Shown piece by piece: positions 27,290-53,407 of a stretch of 64,000 nt of DNA. Position numbers and translations under genes: made by a program. How positions within the stretch are numbered: position 1 is the first letter of the stretch; every line of letters starts with the position of its first letter. Origin of the DNA: Amyelois transitella (taxonomy: Eukaryota > Arthropoda > Insecta > Lepidoptera > Pyralidae); assembly GCF_032362555.1 (NCBI RefSeq), contig NC_083527.1:6820001-6884000 (forward strand), read 5' to 3'. Under the pieces are notes generated by a model. The model was not told the DNA's origin. It worked only from the letters and a program-made list of their open reading frames with translations, and ran no database searches.

Positions 27290-28170
27290 ATAAGTTTTCT
27301 TAACTTAACAATATTCTTTTCCCAAAATTTGTCGACTTTATATATTTATTATTTTTGGTATTTTCCTGCGTATCTTCATGGGTTGCTGAGGCTGTTATGC
27401 CTTTAAAACACCTTAATAAATGTGTTCTACCCATCAAATTATGTCAATTAATAATTTGTTTCATTCAGTTGACCTAACTTGAAACAGTATGGGAACAGTC
27501 TAAAACTAGGGCAGGTTGTAAATGGGGCCAGTTATGTAATAGTTATTCTAGGAACAAATAAGTTTCAACTAAAAAAATCAAGTTTTCTTATAGCAATACA
27601 CGAATTTACTTGACAACTTTCTTCTCTCCAAACTTGACCACTTTGTCCAGATTTTCTCTGAGTATCTTCAGTTGGTTGAGCACATTGCTGTCCATCAGGG
27701 AATACGGGATGTAGTCCTGGGTTTATTGAAGCTGTTTAGCTTTTAAACATCTTAACCACTAAACTTGTCCCATCAAGACTTAATTTATAACTTGTCCAAT
27801 TCAGTTCAGTATAAGAATAGGACGAAATGCAAACAGTAGATGAGTCTAGAAATGGGGCAGGTTGTAAATGGGGCAAGTTATCTAATAGTTATTCTAGGAA
27901 CGAATTAGTTTCAACTAAAAAAATCAAGTTTTCTTATAGCAATACTCGAATTTACTTGACAACTTTCTTCTCTCCAAACTTGACCACTTTGTCCAGATTT
28001 TCTCTGAGTATCTTCAGTTGGTTGAGCACATTGCTGTCCATCAGGGAATACGGGATGAAGTCCTGGGTTTGTTGAAGCTGTTTAGCTTTTAAAACATCTT
28101 ACCTACTAAACTTGTCCCATCAACACTGTTAATTTAAAACTTGTCCAATTCAGTCGACTTAAATTGGGAC
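27290..28170 (-). pseudogene. Three broken tandem copies of the borealin last exon
   Basis: Copies at about 27950-28090 and 27600-27740 repeat the final 40-odd codons, stop codon and 3' flank of borealin (functional exon 28295-28496), nearly base for base, with a period of about 340 bp. A third, at about 27300-27450, is strongly diverged and partly deleted, but the order TTTCTCTGAGTATCTTCA-like, GAAGCTGTT-like, CTTTTAAAACA-like is kept. None has a splice acceptor. In the 27600 copy a C-to-T change makes an AATAAA on the minus strand near 27720. Confidence 0.85.
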
Positions 28171-28294
28171 GAGGTAGAGTAGATGATTCTAGAAATGGGG
28201 CAGGTTGTAAATGGGGCAAGTTATCTATTAGTTATTCTAGGAACAAATAAGTTTCAACTAAAAAAATCAAGTTTTCTCATAGCAATACTCGAAT

Positions 28295-29724
28295 TTACTT
28301 GACAACTTTCTTCTCTCCAAACTTGACCACTTTGTCCAGATTTTCTCTGAGTATCTTCAGTTGGTTGAGCACATTGCTGTCCATCAGGGAATACGGGATG
28401 TAGTCCTGGGTTTGTTGAAGCTGTTTAGGTTGTAGGGAGAGCATAGTGCCGTCTTGTAATAGGATGTTGCAGTTGGCTTTCTCCTCTGGCTGCATGCTGG
28501 AATGAAATATAATGGGTGGTTAAATTATTTTTCTCTCTCATATGAGACTGCGGTTTAATTATTATATCCCCCGTTAGACTTTCATATGAGAGACTTGCCC
28601 CGGCTTTGCACGGGTCTATATCCCCTGCGGGGTTGACAGAACCAAAAAGTCTTGAAAACACTGATAGGCCTTAGACATTGGCCACATTCAGTTGTTCTGC
28701 TTAATGATAGAATTGAGATTCTAATAGTGATAGGTTGCTAGCCAATCGCCTAAAAGAAGAATCCCAAGTTTATAAGCCTTAATTGCCTTTTACGACTTAA
28801 TCGCCTTTTACGACAGAATTGCCACGTTCGGCTATTTGGCTTAATGATAGAATTGAGATTCAAATAGTGATAGGTTGCTAGCCAATCGCCTAAAAGAAGA
28901 ATCCCAAGTTTATAAGCCTATCCCTTAGCCTTTTACGACATCCATGGGAAAGAGAAGGAGTGGTTCAATTCTTTTTTTCTATTGGTGCCGGGAACCACAC
29001 GGCACGCGATTTTATGTATGATACAAACTCACGTGTAACAGGTTGGCACCATAACAGGAGATCCAGACATGGAAACCACCATCTCGCCCTGACGTGGCTG
29101 CCTCAGGATCGTCAGCGGGGTGTGCGGAGTCACCTACAATATTGAAACGATTCCATTTTAATAATATGTCTTGGTAAAGTGGCAAGTGGAAAGGGGTAGT
29201 CTCTGCCTACCCCTCCGGGAAAGAGGCGTGATTTTATGTATGTATGTATGTATACGTCTTGGTAACTATTTCTCTAACCTACAATTTTGAAACAATTCCA
29301 TTTTAATAATATGTCTTGTGGTAACTATTTCTCTATCTATTACATGCATTATATACTTCACGCTTCTTCTTTGGAGGGGTAGGTTGAGACTATTTATACA
29401 TACATACATATACACATATAATAAGTTAAACGAAAAGTGTGACTTAGATATTCACCATGATTCCCTTTCGAAACTCAAAAGTAAATTAAATCAGTTATTT
29501 AATCAACTGTAAATAATTCATATTAAATACAAAAAAAAAAAAAATAAACAAAAAATGTAAATGAAACTATGTAAATTATTATATTATGTATATTATGTAT
29601 GAACTGTATTTCTACTACTACTTTTATTGGTAAATGCTGTGTTCACCTTTAATTGGGTTGCATGCTAGATTAAGTACTTTTGAATGTATCATATAAATGT
29701 AAACATGTATCCTGTTGGTGTACC

Positions 29725-40895: not shown

Positions 40896-43800
40896 ATGGC
40901 GGACGTTGTCATTTTTGGATATCTGTTCACATTTTTAGTGATAAGTGGTTGTTACGGTAAGATATAATTGTAATACTTTATTCTACATGTAGCCTAAAGT
41001 GCAACGCTTGTTTCTTGCAATTTTCAGGGCTATATCTCTACTCTAAGGTCGAAAAATTGGTAGCTTTCGTACTTGACCGACATCAATGTTTTTTTTTCAT
41101 AACACGCTTTGTTTTGGTACCTTTGGGTTACCTTGTTATATTAAAATATAATCTAACGTAGATAACAGACATTATACAAGTTGTACATTAATAATGAAAA
41201 TAATTTAAAGACAAAAAAAGTTTTTCACTTTTATGTCTTTGTATATGTAATTCTTGAAATTTATTCTTAGAAGATTGATGATAAAAGGTAGATAATATTT
41301 GTTTTTTATTAAGGGACTTAGAATAGCTACGACACTCCTGACGGAACCTTAGAAGTCGCCATCGGACTTCTACTTTTCCTATTCTTATGTGTAAGACATG
41401 TTTAAATCTGTGATAAAAACAGGATATAATAAATGTAGTTAATAATTAATAATAGATAATATAATTCCTGCAGGACAGCGAGGCTTGGACACCTTTGATG
41501 ATGAGGCAGCAATACAAACAACCCATGGGCCCGCAGTACAGAAGACGAGTCATGTTTCCTTTGATCAGATGATGGTACACCAACCCAGGTATATATTGTT
41601 ATAGATCAGTCACTAACTGTCATACAGACATATGGTCTATATCCCTTGTGGGGTAGACAGAGCCAACAGTCTTGCAAAGACTGAATGGCCACGTTCAGCT
41701 ATTTAGCTAAATGATAGAATTGAGATTCGAATAGTGACAGGTTGCTAGCCCATCGCCTAAACAAGAATCCCAAGTTTGTGAGCCTATCCCTTAGTCGCCT
41801 TTTACGACATTCATGGGAAAGAGATGGAGTGGTTCTATTCTTTTTTGTATTGGTGCCGGGAACCACACGGCACAATTGTCATCATTGTTATAAATTAAAT
41901 AATTTTATTACATGGGTCCCATTTTTTCTTTATTTATGTACTACAATCTGTCACCATTAAGGAATATTGTGTTGTATGTAGTGCTATGTGGTTTCCGACA
42001 CCAATACAAAAAAGAATAGGACCACTCCATCTCTTTCTCATGGATGTCGTAAAGGCGACTAAGGGTTAGCTTTACCAACTTGGGATTCTTTTTTTAGGCG
42101 ATGGGCTAGCGACCTGTCACTTTTAGAATCTCAATCCTATCATTAAGCCAAATAGTTGAATGTGGCTGATCAGTTTCTTCAAGACTGTTGGCTCTATCTA
42201 CTCCATACCCCACAAGGGATATAGACGTGACCATATGAATGAATGAATGAATATTTATGTATGTAGTGCCATGTGGTTCCCGGCACCAATATTAAAAAGA
42301 ATAAGACTCCACTCCATCTCTTTCCCATGGATGTCTTAAAGGCGACTAATGGATAGGCTTATAAACATGGTATTCTTTCTCTGAGGTGACAGGCTAGCAA
42401 CCTATCTCTATATGAATCTCAATTTTATCATAAAGGCAAACAGCTGAATGTGGCCTATCAATCTTTTCGAGACTGTTGGCTGTCCACCCCGCAGGGGATA
42501 TAGACGTGACTTTATGTATGTTGACACCAAGATCACATCTCTATGGTCATATCTTTACAATTTTGTATTAATCTGTTCAGTAGTTTTCGTAGGAAGGAGT
42601 GATATGAACAAAAATACTTTTAAGCTAGTGTAATTTTATATGTTGTGAAAATTTTAGTTTCAATATTGACTGTTGATTTGTGTTTGTTTTTATTACATTG
42701 CTATCTCATAGGAAGGGAAGATTTCGAAAGAGGTAATTTTTATGTTTATAAATTCTTTATGTTCTGGAATATTGCAAAATGAAAAACATATAGTTAGATT
42801 AGATGATGTTATAATCATGGGTTGTGTGGTTTCCAGCACTTTAGAATAGAACCACTCTATAACTTTCCAATGTATATCGTAAAAGGCGACTAAAGGATAG
42901 GCTTATAAACTTGGGTCTACTCTTTTAGGCAATAGGCTAGCAAGTTGTCACCATTTGAATGTCAGTTCTATAGTGGAGCTGCATCATAGGTATAATAATA
43001 TCTACATTTCTATGATATTAAATTGAAATTGTATTTGTTTTGAATAGAATAGAATAGAATAATTTATTTGCATGATTCACATATTTTTTACATATAAATC
43101 AACCTGCGTTATGTTAACCTTGTGTTATGTAAACTATGGTTCTTGGTTTTCAGATACAAATGTTACCAATGTGAGTCTTCGGACTGCTTCGAAGACGGAT
43201 TGGAGCACGTCTGCCACGAAGCGCTGTACTGCTTCAAATCATCAGTGCGGACGCTCGATGGTAGCTTACAGCATTCCAGGGGATGCACGCAGAGGAGTGA
43301 CCACTCTCAGTTCACTTGCAGGACTAATAGGCTGCAGAAAGGGTAAGTACATACATATGATCACGTCTATATCTCTTGCGGGGTAGACAGAGCCAACAGT
43401 CTTGAAAAGACTGATAGGCCACGCTCAGCTGTTTGGCTTAGTGATAGAATTGAGATTCAAATAGTGACAGGTTGCAAGCCCATCGCCTAAAAGAGGAATC
43501 CCAAGTTTATAAGCGTATCCCTTAGTCGCCTTTCACGACATCCGTGAGAAAGAGATGGAGTGGTCCTATTCTTTTTTGTAATGGTGCCGGGAACCACACG
43601 GCACTACACAGAAACACACACAGAAAGGGTAAGTATTATTGCACAATTGGCTGATTGTCAAAAAAAACATTTGAGATGAATGTGTAATGTATGGGTTTAA
43701 ACAGTTAGGCCATCGAAACATCGAAATATCAAAAACACTATATGCATGACAAGTGACAAACCATAGCGCGTAATAATAAAGCACACCGCCATCTATTAGA

Positions 43801-46800
43801 ACAACAACAAAAATAAAGTTACATTAGATTGAATAATTAATACGAAGAAAAAATTGAAACTTTGTCTTGCCCCCGGCTAGTAGGTACCATTTGTATCGCG
43901 CGTATAAGACTTGAAACGGTAACGTTCTTTTGGGCGATGGGCTAGCAACCTGTCACTATTTGAATCTCTATTCTATCATTAAACTAAACAGCTAAATGTG
44001 GCCTTTCAGTCTCATACATATCATCACGGCTATATCTCTCCGTAAGGGATATAGACAGACAAGGGATATACACAGGTGCACCCCGATCTCTTCTCTAGAG
44101 TGGTGAAGACACATTGTCATGTATTAAAGACAAAGGTGGTGGACAAATATGGAGGGAAAGGTCGGAGTGGGAAGGCCTAGACGAACGTATCTTTATCAAA
44201 TGAAGGACGTCCTGGTAAAGGGTCAGGTCAAGAGTACCCGAAACCGCCGAGCTTGCAAGCAGAGTCACGAATGTGGATGAAGCGAAGGAAGTATGCAGAG
44301 ATCGTGGCAAGTGGAAAGATGTAGTCTCTGCGGAGGGTAGGTAGTAGTTGGAGGGGTAGCCTCCGGGAAAAAGCCGTGATTTTATGTATGTATGTATGTA
44401 CGTTAGGAAAAATCCGTGATTTTAAGATGTAGTCTCTGCCTACCCCTCCGGGAAAGAAGTGTGATTTTATGTATGTACGTAGGAACTTTATGATGTAAAT
44501 AACACACGTGTGTTCACAAATCGAGATCTTTGACATTTGGTTTTCTTTTAACAGTCCTCGCAAACGCCACGCCGGCCAGCTGAACATCACATGCTGTACT
44601 GGGGACATGTGCAACGACGGAGACTTCCCCCAACTACCGCCCGTGGAGGACACCTCCATAGAGCCGGTGCCGTCGCACGTGACCCGGCTGTGGGCCAGCG
44701 TGGCGGCCGCCGTGCTGGTGGTGGGCGGGATAGCCGCCATGGGGGTGTTCGTGCTGAGAAGGAGTCACAGGTGAGGGCAGGTCTACCACTTTTATGCTGA
44801 GGAGTCATAGGTGATTTTCTTCTTCTCCGGGATTCCAGGTCAATCAGAGAAAGTTCCTTTCCCATCATGCCCTGACCGGCCGGGATTCGAACCCGGGACC
44901 TCCGGTGTCACAGACAAACGTACTACCTACCGCTGCGCCACAGAGGCCGTCAAAACCAAAGATAAATCACTTCAGAGTCAGGTGAGTACATTCCCCCAGC
45001 TTCCGCTCGTGGAGGACACCGCCATAGAGCCGGTGCCGTCGCAGGTCACCCGGCTGTGGGCCAGCGTGGCGGCCGCCGTGCTGGTGGTGGCCGGGATAGC
45101 CGCTATGGGGGTGTTCGTGCTGAGAAGGAGTCACAGGTGATTTTCTTCTTCTCCGGGATTCCAGGCCAATCAGAAAAAGTTCTTTTCCCATCATGCCCTG
45201 ACCGGCCGGGATTCGAACCCGGGACCTCCGGTGTCACAGACAAACGTACTACCTACTGAAGAGAAGGAGTCATAGGTGAGTGCGGTTGAAGTGATTAATT
45301 TTTGGTTTTTAATAAACATATTGTGCCGTGTGGTTCCCGGCACCGATAAAAAGAAAAGAATAGGACCACTCGCATCTCGTTCCCATGGATGTCGTAAAAG
45401 GCGACTAAGGGATAGCTAAAAACATGGGATTCTTCTTTTAGGCGATGGGCTAGCAACCTGTCACTTTATATGAAACTCAATGATATCAGTAAGCCAAACA
45501 GCTGATAGTGGCCTATCAGTAATTTCAAAACTGTTGGCTCTGTCTACCCCACAAGGGATACAGACGTGATTATGTATGTATGTTAAATTACAAATTGTAA
45601 ATCTTTCGTTCCGCCTATCAGTAATTTCAAAACTGTTGGCTCTGTCTACCCTGCAAGGGATACAGACGTGATTATGTATGTATATTAAATTACAAATTGT
45701 AAATATTTCGTTTCAGATTACGCGTCTCCCGCGCAGCTCTGCACAAATTGGGCGAAGATTCCAACTATTTTTCTAGCAACGTTTACAGCCCGCCTAGTGC
45801 TTATTACGAAGGTAACATTTCTTCTTATTTTAACTGGCTTTAATCCAGGTTGCATCCTCACCACTCTGGAGACCCGGAGTACCCGGGGTATGCCTTTGAC
45901 TATGAGTCCTGGATTGGGTGAGTCAGGTTTTTACACGAAGCGATTACCTAATGAATGAATGTATACTAAATATAGACTGAGAGGGTCATGTCCAAACGCG
46001 CATGCGTTTCCCGCGCAATGCATTAAAAAAAACATTATAAAAAAATAATTAATAAAAGAAACCGTTATTTATTACATAAACAATGCAGAAATTACTATCT
46101 AACATCCAAATCATGAATTACCATAATTATTGAGTACCGATTAATCTTTAATTTAGCACAATAACAAAAAATAAATTAACAAACGCCATTGAATGCTTTA
46201 GCGGAAAACGCCATCTAGCGACGATCATGTGAAACTAATGCTACAGATGTGCTCTCACTATCCGACAAATATGTATATGATTTCCTGTATTTTGTTCTCA
46301 GGCGTGGAAGGCTCTCAAAATGGCGGCGGTCTACGCGCCGTGGCTGCCGGTGACTCCACGCTGAGAGAGTATCTGGAATGCTCCGTGACGAGTGGATCCG
46401 GGTCTGGATTGCCACTAATGGTTCAACGGACGCTCGCCAAGCAGGTCTCTCTCATTGACTGCGTCGGGAAGGTATGTTTGTTAATGGTAGCTGGAGATCA
46501 AATACAAAATTTTTATTCATTATTATAGGATACCCCATATCGCTTAATAATTGTCAAAACGTATGGTTTCACAACATTGGTTGACGTGAAATAAATTACA
46601 TAAAACTATGTTTACTGCCGCTTCCAAGGCGTCAGTGCAGAAGAAGCGGTAACAAACTGCACTGCAGCATTTTCTTCAACAACGTCAACTTCACAATTAT
46701 CCAATCTTAGAATAGAATGTGGATGAGAGATCGTTTTGTCTTGTCTTACTATTTATTTTAATTCTGACAAATGCCGCTGCAGTAAAGTATTACGCTATTG

Positions 46801-49800
46801 TACCTAATGTAATTTAAAAATACATACATAAAGTCACTAATCTCTTGCGGGGAAAAATTGATAGGAAATGTTCCGCTGTTTGGCTTATTGACAGATTTGA
46901 GAATAGAAATATGGATGATTCTAAATTAATATTAATAAATATTATATTAAGAATGTTCCATTACAAGTTCTGGATTACCACTAATGGTTAGATTTTAATG
47001 GCATTTATTTTAAATTTCATCACAGTGCTGTATGGGTTCCTGTCAATTGAGAATAGGACCACTCCTCCCATCTTTTTCCTATCGATATCGACAAAATTCA
47101 AATTCTACTTTCGGGCGATGGGCTAGCAATCTTGTCACTATTTGAATCTCAATTCCATTACCAAGCCATACAGCTGAACGTGGCCTTTCAGTCTTTTCGA
47201 GACTTAGTTGGTTCTGTCTACTCTGCGAGGTATATAGACGTGACTTTATTTATTTAACCCAATAGATTACCAAAAAAAAAATTGGAAATTGTGTACACAT
47301 ACGTATATCTGATATGTGTATGTATGTATGCCCTAAATTAATTGTAAACATTGAACAGCATTCTCGTTTACCCCCAGGGCCGCTACGGCGAGGTGTGGCG
47401 CGGCTCGTGGTACGGGGACGCCGTGGCCGTCAAGATCTTCTTCTCCCGCGACGAGGCCAGCTGGCGGCGCGAGACCGAGATCTACAGCACCGTGCTGCTG
47501 CGGCACGAGCACATCCTGGCCTACATCGGCAGCGACATGACCAGCAGGAACAGCTGCACGCAGGCGAGTGGGGCTCCCGCAGATAGGGCTCCGGGGGCAG
47601 AGTGTTGTACAGCACCGGGCTGCTGCGGCACGAGCACATCCTGGCCTACATCGGCAGCGACATGACCAGCAGGAACAGCTGCACGCAGGCGAGTGGGGCT
47701 CCCGCAGATAGGGCTCCGGGGGCAGAGTGTTGTACAGCACCGGGCTGCTGCGGCACGAGCACATCCTGGCCTACATCGGCAGCGACATGACCAGCAGGAA
47801 CAGCTGCACGCAGGCGAGTGGGGCTCCCGCAGATAGGGCTCCGGGGGCAGAGTGTTGTACAGCACCGGGCTGCTGCGGCACGAGCACATCCTGGCCTACA
47901 TCGGCAGCGACATGACCAGCAGGAACAGCTGCACGCAGGCGAGTGGGGCTCCCGCAGATAGGGCTCCGGGGGCAGAGTGTTGTACAGCACCGGGCTGCTG
48001 CGGCACGAGCACATCCTGGCCTACATCGGCAGCGACATGACCAGCAGGAACAGCTGCACGCAGGCGAGTGGGGCTCCCGCAGATAGGGCTCCGGGGGCAG
48101 AGTGTTGTACAGCACCGGGCTGCTGCGGCACGAGCACATCCTGGCCTACATCGGCAGCGACATGACCAGCAGGAACAGCTGCACGCAGGCGAGTGGGGCT
48201 CCCGCAGATAGGGCTCCGGGGGCAGAGTGTTGTACAGCACCGGGCTGCTGCGGCACGAGCACATCCTGGCCTACATCGGCAGCGACATGACCAGCAGGAA
48301 CAGCTGCACGCAGGCGAGTGGGGCTCCCGCAGATAGGGCTCCGGGGGCAGAGTGTTGTACAGCACCGGGCTGCTGCGGCACGAGCACATCCTGGCCTACA
48401 TCGGCAGCGACATGACCAGCAGGAACAGCTGCACGCAGGCGAGTGGGGCTCCCGCAGATAGGGCTCCAGGGGCAGAGTGTTATATAGATGTGATATAGTC
48501 GATTATGATCCTAAAGGAAGCGTACTTTATGCACAGTTATCAGAGGCAATTTGATGTATTCTGAACAAAAAAAAATCCGGTTGAAGTTGGTTGTTATATA
48601 GTGCCACTGAAGGTCAAAAACAGGCCAAAATGTGCACCAAAAGAACTAGCTGTATAAATTTGAACCTGGCATTTTTTCCCCTTGGACACTAAAAATGCAC
48701 ACACCGTCAACATATTCAAAAATAATGTATTCCACTTGAGCACTGAGATTGGCGTACATATAGTCACGTCTATATCCCTTGCTGGGTAGACAGAGCCGAA
48801 AAGACTGAAGGGCCACGTTCAGGCTTTATGATGGAACTGTGATTCAAATAGTGACAGGTTGCTAGTCAATAGCAAGTTAAGCCTATCCATAATTCGCCCT
48901 TAACGACATCCATTAGAATAGAATAGATTTATTTTCCAAATTGTATACAAGGTATCACTTATTGAAGTCACATAACTTAAATCTAATTATAACTACTACC
49001 GCTTCCAAAGCGCATGTGTAGAAGAAGCGGCGGAAGAAACTACACTGCAGTATTTACATCGGACAGACGTCAATTTGCAAATATAGATTTAAAAGATACA
49101 GAGTGATTCTATTCTTAAAATGTTGGGTAATCACTTAATACTTATAAATTTCCACGTTTTTTCAGTTGTGGCTCATCACCCATTATCACCCGCTGGGCTC
49201 GCTGTACGAGCACCTGAACAGGTGCACCCTGACCCGTCATCAGATGATGGTCATCTGTCTGTCAGCCATCAACGGACTGCTGCATCTGCACACAGAGATA
49301 CACGGCACACAGGTTCATTAATTCAAAATTCAAAATTTTTATTCTTTATTATAGGATGGATACTTCATATCGCTTAATAATAATGGTTTAACAACATTGG
49401 TTGAAGTCAAAATGTAGGTAAATGTAGGTAGGTACACAAGGTATGTAAGAACATACATATAGTCACGTTTATATCCCTTGCGGGATAGACAAAGCCGCGC
49501 CAGCCTTGAAAAGACTGATGAGGCCATGTTCAGCTTTTTGGCTTGATTATTAGAATTGAGATTCAAATTGTGACAGGTTGCTAGGTTGACAGGTAGGCCC
49601 ATCGCCTTAAAGGAGAATCATAAATTTGTAAGCATATCCCTTAGTCGCTTTTTCGACATTCATGAGAAAAAGAGGGAGTGGTCCTATTCTTCTTTTTGTA
49701 TTGGTGCCTGGAACCACACAGCACACATATTGTCCTGTATATATTTATTATTTTATATTTCACCAGGGCAAACCGGCCATAGCTCACCGGGACATCAAAA

Positions 49801-52533
49801 CCAAGAATATCCTGGTGAAAGTGAACGGAGAATGTTGCATCGCAGACCTTGGGCTGGCGGTGACCAGGGCCCACGTGGCTTCGAAGCAGCACAGCAACCC
49901 CAGGCAGGGCACCAAGCGTTATATGAGCCCGGAGATGTTGGATCAGAGGTCGGTGTTACAGGATATTGCTATTGCAACATTATTAAGGTTTTCTTTCTTT
50001 CTTTCTTTCTTTTCTATATTATGGCTTCCACCGGACTTTCGGTGATTCTGCCAATGTCATGGTTTGAAGAGACACGAAGTTACAAAAATGGACGGTATAC
50101 AATCTGAAAGGAGAAGGTTAACAAATGTACAAACACAAAAAGACAAACACAACAAGTAGGTATTGTTAGTATTATTAAGGTTGTATAGCACAAGCAAGAA
50201 ATAAAAAGAAAGTCACTGTCATGTCACTCGTGACTTCTGAAAAAACTGTGATGTGTGAATATTCTAATAATATCTTTATAACTGAATAAAATATATTTAT
50301 TATATTGTGTAGTGTATTAAAAAAAAACTAATGTGCGCTACGCGGGCTTCTATTCCACTGCAGGTACCAAGTTTTGGCGTTTATCAAATATAGCGCGGGA
50401 ATGCTGCCTACGCGATGGATACCCTTCCTTAGGGGTCAAAATTAAAATAATAATATTTTTAGACTGTAGTATTTAGAATAGTTTTTTTATTATTAATAAC
50501 TAGCTTTCCCCCGCGACTCCGTCCGCGCGGATGTAGGTCTTCGCGTGGATGGTTTATTTCTCCATTTTGAGTAACTCTGACAATGACATGTTTTAAATAT
50601 CTGTTGGACCCAATTACGGCTAGGCGTATAATAATTAAGGAGATCCGTCTATTGGGCTACTGCTGTTGAGCTCGCGTTCTGTAGTAAGTATTTTTTTCAT
50701 AGTAATTAGTAGCGGCCCGCGTGTGCCGCAAACGGTTCAAGCCAAATCCGACTTTCGGCGCTACTGGTTACGGCGCTGAATCCACTGCGGGTAACGCAAC
50801 GTGTGTTCGCGGTTCGACAGAACAACGTCTATGGATAAACTAATAAAAATAAGATTTTTTATTTTTCCAGGATAAAAAGTATCCTATTTTACGGCCAGGA
50901 TAATAAGGTATAATTATACCAAGTTTCATCGAAATCGAACCGTTAGTTTTCACGTGATGCCTGAACATACAGATAGACTCTGACTCTTTGCCTTATCCCA
51001 CTAATGCACTTGCTCGATGCGTTTCATCGACATTCGATCATCAAAACTGTAGAATGATCATGTCCCCCCTGTCCCCAGCATAAACCTGGAGTGCTTCGAG
51101 TCGTACCTGAAGTGCGACGTGTACGCCTTCGCCCTCGTCCTCTGGGAGGTGTCCCGGCGCACGCTGCCGTGTCCGCGGGAGGCGCGCGCGCCGTTCGCGG
51201 AGCTGGTGCCGCCCGACCCCAGCTTCGAGCTCATGAGGAAGGTGGTGTGCGGCGACGGCGCCCGCCCCGCGCCTGTAGATGATGATCATCCGGTATGATA
51301 GTCAATATACTGATGTTGTGAAGCTGAACAGTTTGTTTGTTTGTTTTTTTGAACGTGCCAATCTCAGGTTTGAATCTTGGGGCACGGTAGTGGGGGCACT
51401 ACGAGCCAAGCGAAGCGCAAGGGCACTACCTACCTTTTCTCGAAGTGGTTCGTCGTATTTTTGAACCTTCATAACTTGAATTTGGGTTATACCAGATAAA
51501 CAAAATTTTCAAGATATGATGTCAGTGATAGATTTAATAAACCTCTAAAGTTTCAATTGCATAGCTCTCATACTTTAGATTTCATTCATATATAAAATAC
51601 CCCGATTTCGTCACTCACTGATGATCATCAATATTCTTAAGGTACTTCCTGAAGTCCTAGAAAACTAAAATTTGATATGTAAGCTAGTATTAGTACCCAA
51701 ACAACAAAAAAATTATAAATCTTGGAACTTTTACCCCCCAACCCCTTAAACTAGGGGGTGAAAGTTTGTTTGAGACTTCCGCAAGTTTTGGCACTAGAGG
51801 TCTGAATGCGGCCTCGGTAACTACCTCCTACTAAACTACCTTTCTTTCTACCATAAGCAACCTACAAAAAGAAATGAAATCCCACAAAAACATTTCATGT
51901 TAAATGTTGCCAATACGAGACCATATAGCTCGCACTGTCAAAAAGTAATCAGATCTCGTGTAAAGCCAAATTTCTAAACCCACATGCCCAGCCCTAAATC
52001 GATAAGCCCTAATTTTACACTCAAGTTACGGGGAAATACCACAGCCATAGCTCGTACTGCGTAGTTCGTAGCGCGTAGCAGAGTTTTGCCACTATAGTCT
52101 CGTAGGCGTGCAAACCGTGGACGTAACTGGCGAGTCGGCCGCACGGAAAGAGTTCAAAAGATTGAATAGATTTTTAAGCTCAAGCCCATATGACGAATAG
52201 CAAAAAGTCCGTTACGTTACGTCCGTTTTATATGCATACGTTTATATCCCTTGCTGGGCAGACGGACTCCAAAAAAAAGTTTAAAGATTTTCACTTAAAT
52301 TCGTCACAGTTAGTGACACAACAAAAAAAAATTTATACTTATAAGATCTTTCTCACTCTTTTTTTTTTCAATATTCACAGACGATGGTCGGCCTAGCCAA
52401 CTTGATGCGCGAATGTTGGCACCAGAACCCATCTGTCCGGCTGCCGGCTTTGCGCATCAAGAAGACCCTGCTGAAACTGGCCTCCTACGACAACAGCATA
52501 CATTTGAACGAAGACGCCGAGGTATCTGTGTGA
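40896..52533 (+). CDS. sax: Saxophone, BMP type I receptor serine/threonine kinase
   Basis: Twelve exons join in phase: 40896-40956, 41474-41588, 42712-42732, 43154-43342, 44555-44770, 45717-45811, 46302-46471, 47378-47563, 49166-49312, 49767-49948, 51079-51292, 52381-52533 (TGA), giving 582 residues. Signal peptide in exon 1. Cysteine-rich ectodomain follows ([11 protein letters not shown] to CCTGDMCN). Transmembrane helix at about 174-196, GS box TSGSGSGLP at 262-270. The kinase has K308 (AVKIF), HRDIKTKN (407-414) and DLG (427-429), the normal type I variant of DFG. The L45-loop region SDMTSRNS is of the ALK1/ALK2/Sax type. It signals through Mad at the plasma membrane downstream of Gbb/Dpp-type ligands. 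Exon 8 is the first unit of an eight-copy array and its intron has a GC donor. AATAAA at 52865-52870. Confidence 0.97.
41620..41875 (+). mobile_element. SINE-like family A element
   Basis: Full-length except for a short microsatellite end; ends GTGCCGGGAACCACACGGCAC. In saxophone intron 2. Confidence 0.82.
41975..42525 (-). mobile_element. Two family A elements in tandem
   Basis: 41975-42240 and 42263-42525, both reverse. The first has (GAATGAAT)n in place of the usual (TATG)n. Each starts with a mutated terminal palindrome (GTGCTATGTGGTTTCCGAC, GTGCCATGTGGTTCCCGGC). Both in saxophone intron 2. Confidence 0.78.
42712..42732 (+). CDS. sax: Saxophone exon 3, 21-nt microexon
   Basis: Lies between an AG (after TGCTATCTCATAG) and GTAATT. 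It encodes KGRFRKR and keeps the frame. Exon 2 spliced directly to exon 4 is also in frame (AG plus A gives Arg), so it could be a cassette exon. It adds a strongly basic patch just before the first ectodomain cysteines. It could be a chance ORF with splice-like borders. Confidence 0.55.
42825..42970 (-). mobile_element. Family A fragment, old
   Basis: Diverged reverse copy (GTCGTGTG-like palindrome, GTAAAAGGCGACTAAAGGAT, GGCTTATAAACTTGGG), in saxophone intron 3. Confidence 0.6.
43350..43620 (+). mobile_element. Family A element with 15-bp target-site duplication
   Basis: Flanked by identical CAGAAAGGGTAAGTA at 43335-43349 and 43621-43635. The duplicated target spans the end of saxophone exon 4 and its 5' splice site. 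After the terminal palindrome the element carries a short CACTACACAGAAACACACA extension. A duplication of this length fits LINE-mediated retrotransposition, so family A is best seen as a SINE. Confidence 0.88.
43925..44065 (-). mobile_element. Family A fragments
   Basis: CGATGGGCTAGCAACCTGTC and GTGGCCTTTCAGTCT, then a short inverted scrap CTATATCTCTCCGTAAGGGAT. Confidence 0.6.
44150..44480 (-). mobile_element. Family B element with repeated head ends
   Basis: Reverse copy (GGTCGGAGTGGGAAGGCCTA, AGTACCCGAAACCGCCGAG, GTGGCAAGTGGAAAGATGTA). The CTCCGGGAAA...GTGATTTTATGTATG head occurs twice (about 44360 and 44445). Confidence 0.75.
44811..44950 (-). mobile_element. tRNA-derived SINE, truncated
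   Basis: On the minus strand: GGCCTCTGTGGCGCAGCGGT (A-box region), CACCGGAGGTCCCGGGTTCG and B box GGTTCGAATCCC, then AGAAACTTTC-type body. Truncated tail. Inserted just after a GTGA that follows an exon 5-end remnant (GAGGAGTCATAG, about 44794-44806). Confidence 0.8.
44993..45136 (+). pseudogene. sax: Second copy of the saxophone transmembrane exon
   Basis: Repeats 44627-44770 (juxtamembrane and transmembrane part of exon 5) with few changes. The frame is open and most changes are conservative (Ser to Ala, His to Gln, Gly to Ala). It lacks the CCTGDMCN half. A donor-like GTGATT follows; no convincing acceptor precedes it. Inclusion would give a second membrane segment, so it is probably not used. 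Confidence 0.8.
45137..45275 (-). mobile_element. Duplicated tRNA-derived SINE and exon-end remnant
   Basis: 45140-45256 repeats the SINE at 44811-44930 with a few substitutions. It ends where GAAGAGAAGGAGTCATAG|GTGAGT, another copy of the exon 5 end, begins (45257-45279). The unit exon piece plus SINE was therefore duplicated as a block. Confidence 0.75.
45323..45707 (-). mobile_element. Family A element with its last 100 bases duplicated
   Basis: 45323-45587 is a full reverse copy. 45512-45605 and 45614-45707 are a tandem duplication of its head plus unique sequence (TTAAATTACAAATTGTAAAT). The second copy runs into the saxophone exon 6 acceptor (exon starts 45717). Confidence 0.8.
46500..46720 (+). 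mobile_element. Family F' element
   Basis: TATCGCTTAATAATTGTCAA, ACAACATTGGTTGACGTGAA, CGCTTCCAAGGCGTCAGTGC. In saxophone intron 7, about 30 bases after the donor. Confidence 0.65.
47035..47245 (-). mobile_element. Family A element, old
   Basis: Diverged reverse copy: CGGGCGATGGGCTAGCAATC, CAGCTGAACGTGGCCTTTCA, ATATAGACGTGACTTTAT. Confidence 0.65.
47488..48487 (+). repeat. Eight-copy 125-bp tandem array at the end of saxophone exon 8
   Basis: Units start at 47488, 47613, 47738, 47863, 47988, 48113, 48238 and 48363: exactly 8 x 125 bp. Each has 76 exonic bases (CACCG[T/G]GCTGCTGCGG to AACAGCTGCACGCAG) and 49 intronic bases starting GCGAGTGGGG and ending GTTGTACAG. Unit 1 has T at base 6 of the unit; units 2-8 all have G. 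Unit 8 differs at its right edge (CCAGGGG, TTATATAG). Otherwise the copies look identical. Confidence 0.97.
48760..49090 (+). mobile_element. Family A fragment then family F element
   Basis: 48760-48910 is a deleted family A copy. 48912-49090 is family F, starting (AGAAT)n and containing ACCGCTTCCAAAGCGCATGT and GAAGCGGCGGAAGAAACTAC. Saxophone intron 8. Confidence 0.72.
49318..49725 (+). mobile_element. Family F' fragment then family A element
   Basis: 49318-49415 is the tail half of F'. 49455-49725 is a full-length family A copy with a duplicated TTGACAGGT-type segment near 49573 and a mutated terminal palindrome (GTGCCTGGAACCACACAGCAC). Confidence 0.72.
50502..51000 (-). mobile_element. 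Helitron-like element, third family
   Basis: Plus strand begins CTAGCTTTCCCCCGCGACTC then CGTCCGCGCGGATG, an inverted hairpin-and-CTAG end. It continues into AAGTTTCATCGAAATCGAAC and ACATACAGATAGACTCTGAC, typical of the 5' half of longer lepidopteran Helitrons. Left border clear, right border not. Confidence 0.5.
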
Positions 52534-52780
52534 AGTTGGACCATATATATGTATATATACCTACAGTGGTCCTTTTGTGAGTACGCAAAACAAAATGGCC
52601 GCCACACAAAATGGCTTTGCGCATCAAGAAGACCCTGCTGAAACTGGCCTCCTACGACAACAGCATACATTTGAATGAAGACGCCGTGGTATCTGTGTGA
52701 AGATGGACCATATATATATATTTCTACAGTGGTCCTTTTGTGAGTATGCAAAACAAAATGGCCGCCACACAAAATGGCCG
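52446..52780 (+). repeat. Tandem duplication of the saxophone stop-codon region
   Basis: Two copies of about 166 bp: 52446-52611 (real exon 12 end plus 3' UTR) and 52612-52780. The second repeats the last 28 or so codons with one residue change (Glu to Val near the end), then TGA and the AAAATGGCCGCCACAC segment. No acceptor precedes it, so it is 3' UTR. Confidence 0.9.
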
Positions 52781-53407
52781 ATAGTGTATGCATTGTATAG
52801 AATATCGCATTAGTTACTTAAACATGTGCCGAAGTATTATTTTAATTTAGTGTAATTATTAGTTAATAAATTTGTAAATATTAAGGTATGTGAGAGGCAT
52901 TCAACGATATTTTATTCATGATTTTTTTTAAATTTAGCAGGTATATAATTAGTAAAAAAAATCATGTCTAATTTCTGTTTTATTTCTATGTTGCGAATAT
53001 AACAAATATATATATTGTATTAATGAAGTCATATTATTTTTGTATAAAATATGATATGCGTATAAATTTTTATTATATGTATACACTAATATATATATAT
53101 TAGTGACATTTTTTTCTTTATTTTTTAAATTACATAGTTATTCTTCGAGGATCATTAAATATATTTAATAATCTGCTCTGGTTATACGTTTATGTATATC
53201 AATATTTGTTTTTTTTTATATACAAAATTTCGAAATATAGGTTAAGTTGAAATCGGTTCAATAGTTTCAGCGTTTATTCAACCTGATATTTTATAAAGAG
53301 ATTCATTTTAACAAATCATTTCTCTTTTATGTAACACCAAAAGAGTGACAGTGTCATTGTGTACAATATATGTACTTATGTAAAATACATTTACTTATTG
53401 CTCTGGA

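Follow-up and report, generated by a model that had tools for sequence, protein, structure and literature searches.

In the 64-kb stretch of DNA analysed, here called the window (a section of contig C23, from an assembly of 33 contigs and 327 Mb), a putative saxophone-like receptor gene carries eight direct units of 125 bp laid across the 3' border of a kinase exon, and only the first of the eight splice donors held by these units keeps the kinase reading frame. Genome size and repeats suggest that the genome is lepidopteran. We consider it probable that the array is a minisatellite over the exon/intron border which was seeded by a low-homology junction and which is tolerated since donor 1 is normally used, the other donors being decoys.

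Host gene and structure of the array

The exons joined in frame gave a GS motif (PF08515, 48.1 bits) and a kinase domain (PF07714, 103.8 bits) in a profile search, and a 68-residue stretch of the upstream reading frame, searched separately, gave an activin-receptor domain (PF01064, 26.0 bits against a cut-off of 20.9). All three domains were above cut-off, indicating that the gene is otherwise readable. Among the best 60 of 950 solved-structure matches, chains of activin receptor type-1 (ACVR1) came first with an E value of 7.2e-94, followed by receptor R3, BMPR1B, and TGFBR1. These results supported the assignment to a saxophone kinase gene made in the earlier note, with the predicted product being a type I TGF-beta-family receptor nearest to ACVR1. 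A second type I receptor was found on contig C16, and its frame was open through the position that corresponds to the end of the array exon. A third type I receptor would be expected; the GS-motif search, in which 6 candidates were scored, found 2 receptors and no third type I receptor.

From the alignment with ACVR1, the kinase exon (numbered exon 8 previously) was placed at 47378..47563 on the + strand, with 186 nt, 62 codons, and phase 0/0, and it takes in the exonic part of unit 1. The following exon, at 49166..49312 (+), is in phase with donor 1. TRF reported an array at 47483..48481 (+) with a period of 125, 8.0 copies, and 99% matches, in agreement with the eight-copy 125-bp array of the earlier note, whose register ran from 47488 to 48487. 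Comparison of each base with the base 125 positions further on showed that identity starts at 47483, in the exon, and stops at 48481, in the intron, which defines a repeated block of 999 bases, with 81 bases from the exon, 43 from the intron, and a single G at each junction. In the register 47488 + 125k, each unit consists of 76 exonic bases followed by 49 intronic bases, with the donor CAG|GCGAGT at their border, and the exonic and intronic lengths given previously were correct by unit comparison. The units are arranged head to tail, and each holds the flanking exon's own donor. Eight near-identical 125-mers cannot be of chance origin.

In this register, units 2–7 are identical, and unit 1 differs from these inner units by a single base, T for G at 47493. 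Unit 8 has A for G at 48468, A for G at 48482, and T for C at 48485, of which the last two fall outside the repeated block. The previous description of units 2–8 as identical was therefore right for their exonic part, whereas unit 8 departs from it at its intronic end. The variant pattern across the array is T..G in unit 1, G..G in units 2–7, and G..A in unit 8. Up to the last exonic base, units 2–8 (47613..48438, +) comprise 7 copies of the last 76 exon bases, all with the T-to-G change (Val to Gly), and 7 decoy GC donors. The first unit junction (47600..47612, +) consists of the intron-derived GAGTGTT, one G, and the exon-derived TACAG, and this junction is present 7 times. At the passage to single-copy sequence, the array reads GAGATC|TACAG on its left side and GAGTGTT|ATATAG on its right; at the right edge (48468..48487, +), unit 8 with its A at 48468 runs to the block end at 48481 and is followed by the single-copy ATATAG. 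An AG-ended string at the left edge had been attributed to every unit; TTGTACAG occurs at the left edge of units 2–8 only, and unit 1 is preceded by the exon sequence ATCTACAG.

A 26-base junction pattern, with up to 2 mismatches allowed, had 7 matches in the 327-Mb assembly, all 7 within the array, and the reversed pattern used as a control had 0 matches. At the sensitivity of the search, a 1301-base query matched in the assembly, besides itself, only a kinase stretch on C16 with 69% identity. Because at this sensitivity the unit was not detected elsewhere in the assembly apart from this kinase homology, it appears to be local rather than a dispersed element. An origin of the unit from a mobile element or a dispersed repeat was unsupported at that sensitivity, with the junction pattern matching these 7 junctions only.

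Six identical units are a usual site of copy-number error, so that the true number of units might be lower or higher in this individual or assembly, or the array might be an error of a single library. We regard such an artefact as quite unlikely, since the array is only 1 kb long and lies within a contig or scaffold of at least 6.88 Mb, the end variants and single-copy flanks are as expected of a real array, and a collapse would lose copies, not gain them.

Donor choice, reading frame, and acceptor signals

Donor 1 (CAG|GCGAGT, 47564..47569, +) is a GC donor, whereas GT occurs at each of the gene's six other examined donors; the earlier note had spelled the donor as GCGAGT without pointing out GC in place of GT. 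Splicing from donor 1 joins ..SCTQ to LWLITHYH, matching ACVR1. Because the exon ends in ..SCTQ and the exon at 49166 continues as in ACVR1, the donor must be CAG|GCGAGT, and GC at +1/+2 is required by the reading frame. The unit comparison found the identical CAG|GCGAGT in all eight units, so the proposal of eight equivalent donors stands. We then enumerated the products with exit from each of donors 1 to 8 and with every earlier 49-nt gap either retained or spliced, which gave 255 combinations. Only 1 of the 255, the use of donor 1 alone, was open and in frame, as had been claimed for the first donor; the other 254 contained a stop or were out of frame. Retention of one extra unit led to a stop in unit 2, and the candidate in-frame multi-unit products, such as those with three extra 76-nt pieces, were likewise stopped or out of frame in the enumeration.

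Each unit had been said to carry splice signals, and this held for the donor and was weakly supported for the acceptor. Only 5 of the 17 positions before the junction AG are pyrimidines, compared with 12–14 of 17 in seven of the gene's acceptors (the exon-6 acceptor was left out of this comparison). The 49-nt gap, with a GC content of 67%, contained no branch-like YTNAY motif, which is weak evidence as the count covers the gap and not the true introns of the gene. By these features, the junction AG would be a poor acceptor, and each unit holds a copy of a real donor without a convincing acceptor. Taken with these poor acceptor signals, a length of 49 nt is probably too short for splicing. These observations bear on the idea of intron birth in progress, in which the 49-base gaps would be spliced and each unit would add a 76-nt exon. 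Every gap does open with a donor and close with an AG, and tandem duplication is accepted as a source of new introns (PMC4974935, PMC3443670). However, the gaps are short, GC-rich, poor in pyrimidines, and devoid of YTNAY, and all such products were out of frame or stopped, making this idea very improbable.

The RNA folds of one unit and of a junction stretch were no better than those of shuffles (z 0.46 and -0.40, respectively), so that there was no sign of a selected structure, and we set this candidate aside as unsupported.

The first 44 intron bases (47564–47607) have a GC content of 70%, compared with 16–50% in six other introns examined. The right end of the duplication falls at a change to AT-rich sequence. 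The 49-nt segment includes GGGG, GGG, and GGGGG, that is, three G-runs per unit, and G-runs enhance weak donors in mammalian work. The repeated intronic starts might accordingly serve as a U1/G-run platform that aids recognition of an exon whose GC donor is weak, the array being favoured as an enhancer. The GC donor and the high GC content of the intron start agree with this proposal, but such a base composition would by itself be expected to give G-runs, and we consider the proposal very unlikely.

In exon definition, the acceptor of an exon is paired with the nearest donor, and it is from this general knowledge that we infer the use of donor 1. In the favoured explanation, a tolerated minisatellite, the acceptor of the exon itself would pair with the nearest donor to give the normal 186-nt exon, and units 2–8 would be removed within the intron; the array would be tolerated because the splicing machinery joins this acceptor to the nearest donor. 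Slips to donors 2–8 would give mRNAs with early stops. Because such mRNAs would presumably be degraded, the array would likely either have no effect or cause a modest drop in output that depends on copy number.

The GC donor may be weak, leaving scope for competition among the donors. If donors 2–8 regularly diverted a share of the transcripts to stop-containing mRNAs, the array would act as a splicing rheostat whose length sets receptor dosage and is under selection. We judge this unlikely, although it would suit eight identical donors of which the authentic one is a GC donor, as well as the stop-containing or out-of-frame state of all 254 alternatives, and although the second-unit donor of the human ABCA7 array is used and yields a frameshift (PMC5954066). 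No sign of selection was seen on units 2–8, whose sole common exonic substitution is the Val-to-Gly change, and the RNA fold of the unit was unremarkable. In addition, the isoform that rises with expanded ABCA7 arrays in the part of that report consulted lacks exon 19 and is not the second-donor product, so that this precedent shows no donor titration. A related reading, which we also think unlikely, is a naturally variable donor array, in which each further 125-bp unit would place another equivalent decoy after the GC donor and the repeat number would set the share of productive saxophone mRNA. If this were true, the repeat number would heritably tune BMP/activin-type receptor signalling between individuals.

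The array offers a natural experiment on donor choice, with eight identical donors in a near-equal context that differ almost only in their distance from the acceptor. They share the same 76 upstream exon bases (with one base off in unit 1) and, in units 1–7, the same 49 downstream bases, and junction counts would gauge the proximity rule of donor choice at a nearly constant sequence.

Origin of the array and other duplications in the gene

The codon containing 47493 encodes Val with T, and the aligned residue is Val both in ACVR1 and in the C16 paralogue (the latter aligned by eye). Because of these alignments, T is probably ancestral at 47493 and units 2–8 are derived, in line with the derived T-to-G change that had been proposed for them. 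The further claim that the units expanded from one derived copy agrees with the probably derived state of units 2–8 but calls for refinement, as the two-ended variant pattern fits an exchange between both founder units. If the two units of a founder duplication read T..x and G..y, one unequal exchange between them gives precisely T..x, G..x, and G..y, which fits the observed pattern, and further rounds of exchange would multiply the middle type. The history requires one duplication, two substitutions, and amplification.

In the first step, a single tandem duplication would have fused the intron base equivalent to 48481 with exon base 47483, at a junction with little or no homology and one extra or altered G. 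The copied stretch would comprise 81 exon bases and the first 43 intron bases, which are GC-rich and include the GC donor. Next, T would have changed to G within the exonic portion of the second unit, and the intronic ends would have come to differ by one G/A substitution. A G..G hybrid unit might then have been created by unequal exchange or slippage and multiplied to six. The C16 paralogue was of no use as a guide to the ancestral donor because its frame runs open across the corresponding point.

The mutation rate of butterflies is 2.9e-9 per base per generation. At this rate and with a star history, 750 bases would stay free of any difference with a probability of 5% at approximately 1.4 million generations, and the six identical units thus give only a loose age limit. 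Recent selection or an assembly effect would also account for their identity, which counts against the tolerated minisatellite. The G at both variable sites in the inner units would fit GC-biased conversion, although two sites prove nothing. Homogenisation appears not to have brought the Val-to-Gly change into unit 1, where a residue shared with ACVR1 would be altered. The array is most likely a recently grown repeat, possibly variable in length and possibly lowering the output of the gene, and it suggests that a conserved receptor gene is able to absorb a growing repeat over a splice border.

Two further duplications were found in the same gene. The last part of the transmembrane exon (44555..44770, +) and the following bases, 44625–44930, recur at 44991–45256 with 83% identity, and this duplication includes adjoining repeat sequence. 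The second copy has 8 differences in 144 aligned coding bases, 4 of them amino-acid-changing, and no stop there. The end of the transmembrane exon with its donor, GAGTCAYAGGTGA, occurs at four + strand sites (44762, 44802, 45128, and 45267). Mutually exclusive use of the second copy was rejected from a reading of the sequence, in which the phase 0 of its obvious acceptor (CCCCCAG|CTT) does not match the phases of the neighbours. In the last coding exon (52381..52533, +), 52446–52615 is repeated at 52613–52778 with 94% identity; this 167-bp tandem duplication, which is missing from the TRF listing, covers the exon end, the stop codon, and the following bases. All three duplications of the gene begin within an exon and extend beyond its 3' end, the other two being less similar than the array. 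One mutational process together with tolerance could be their common cause. Survival bias suffices for the common geometry, because a copy placed there spares the original exon and the first donor or stop.

The exon together with its array is also flanked by inverted copies of a repeat (47115–47252 and 48755–48873), which are 74% identical overall, with ungapped arms of 26–43 nt at 84–96%; similar copies occur elsewhere in 43000–53000. By its arrangement, this layout could favour a circular RNA of the array exon. After the exon at 45717–45811, the GC-richer segment 45849–45917 is a possible small exon only if a 37-nt intron is spliced, and skipping it would also keep the frame (by eye).

As a background sample, 20 hand-picked, not random, stretches of 10 kb (200 kb in total) were taken from the same genome. 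TRF returned 51 rows for this sample; in 3 of these the period was 40 or more, and 0 of 51 combined such a period with 5 or more copies. Local direct repeats numbered 13 in the 64-kb window (12 plus the array counted as one) against 6 in the 200 kb (one-sided binomial p 6e-5), and TRF arrays with a period of at least 40 numbered 7 against 3 (p 0.003). These p-values are only a hint that the window is denser in tandem duplications than the sample, because the window was not blindly chosen, the self-comparison was made in 10-kb pieces, the sample was hand-picked, and local repeats of dispersed elements were counted. TRF also reported a 343-bp, 2.7-copy tandem array with 93% matches at 27497–28428, outside the studied region.

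Comparison with known systems

In the literature on VNTRs or minisatellites with splicing or exon-intron junctions, screened by title and the start of the abstract, such an array was found only in ABCA7, and a search on partial exon duplication gave no match. The human ABCA7 intron-18 VNTR (PMC5954066) has a 25-bp unit, its first bases are the exon 18 donor, and use of the second-unit donor retains a 25-nt unit and shifts the frame. Its alleles vary widely in length, spanning roughly 12 to 427 units, and the size of the array influences splicing, with an exon-19-skipping isoform rising upon expansion. ABCA7-like arrays would thus not always be silent, which tells against a simply tolerated minisatellite in the receptor gene.

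Border-spanning copies that inherit the parental splice signals are also described for intron gain by tandem duplication (PMC4974935, PMC3443670). In the potato RdRp gene, the acceptor side was duplicated across the intron/exon border and the new intron was shown by RNA-seq (PMC4974935), whereas here the donor side is present eightfold with no credible-looking new intron. The GC donor with the remainder of the site near consensus resembles those of GC-AG introns, but multi-copy donors are absent from the portion of that description consulted (PMC2490688), and the receptor array has eight. Tandem GYNGYN donors likewise place equivalent donors next to each other; by their motif these are 3 nt apart, and they are reported to permit subtle changes in the protein (PMC1779574), whereas the donors here are 125 nt apart and only one keeps the frame.

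The closest likeness is with ABCA7 (PMC5954066), where a tandem array also arises from an exon end and its unit holds the authentic donor. The ABCA7 array has a 25-bp unit, a GT donor, and no exon body, whereas the present one, in another gene of another animal and known from one assembly, has 125-bp units with 76–81 exon bases, a GC donor, and eight copies, and its near-perfect unit identity sets it further apart. By analogy, the receptor array is a variant of the already known kind of VNTR that carries a splice donor.
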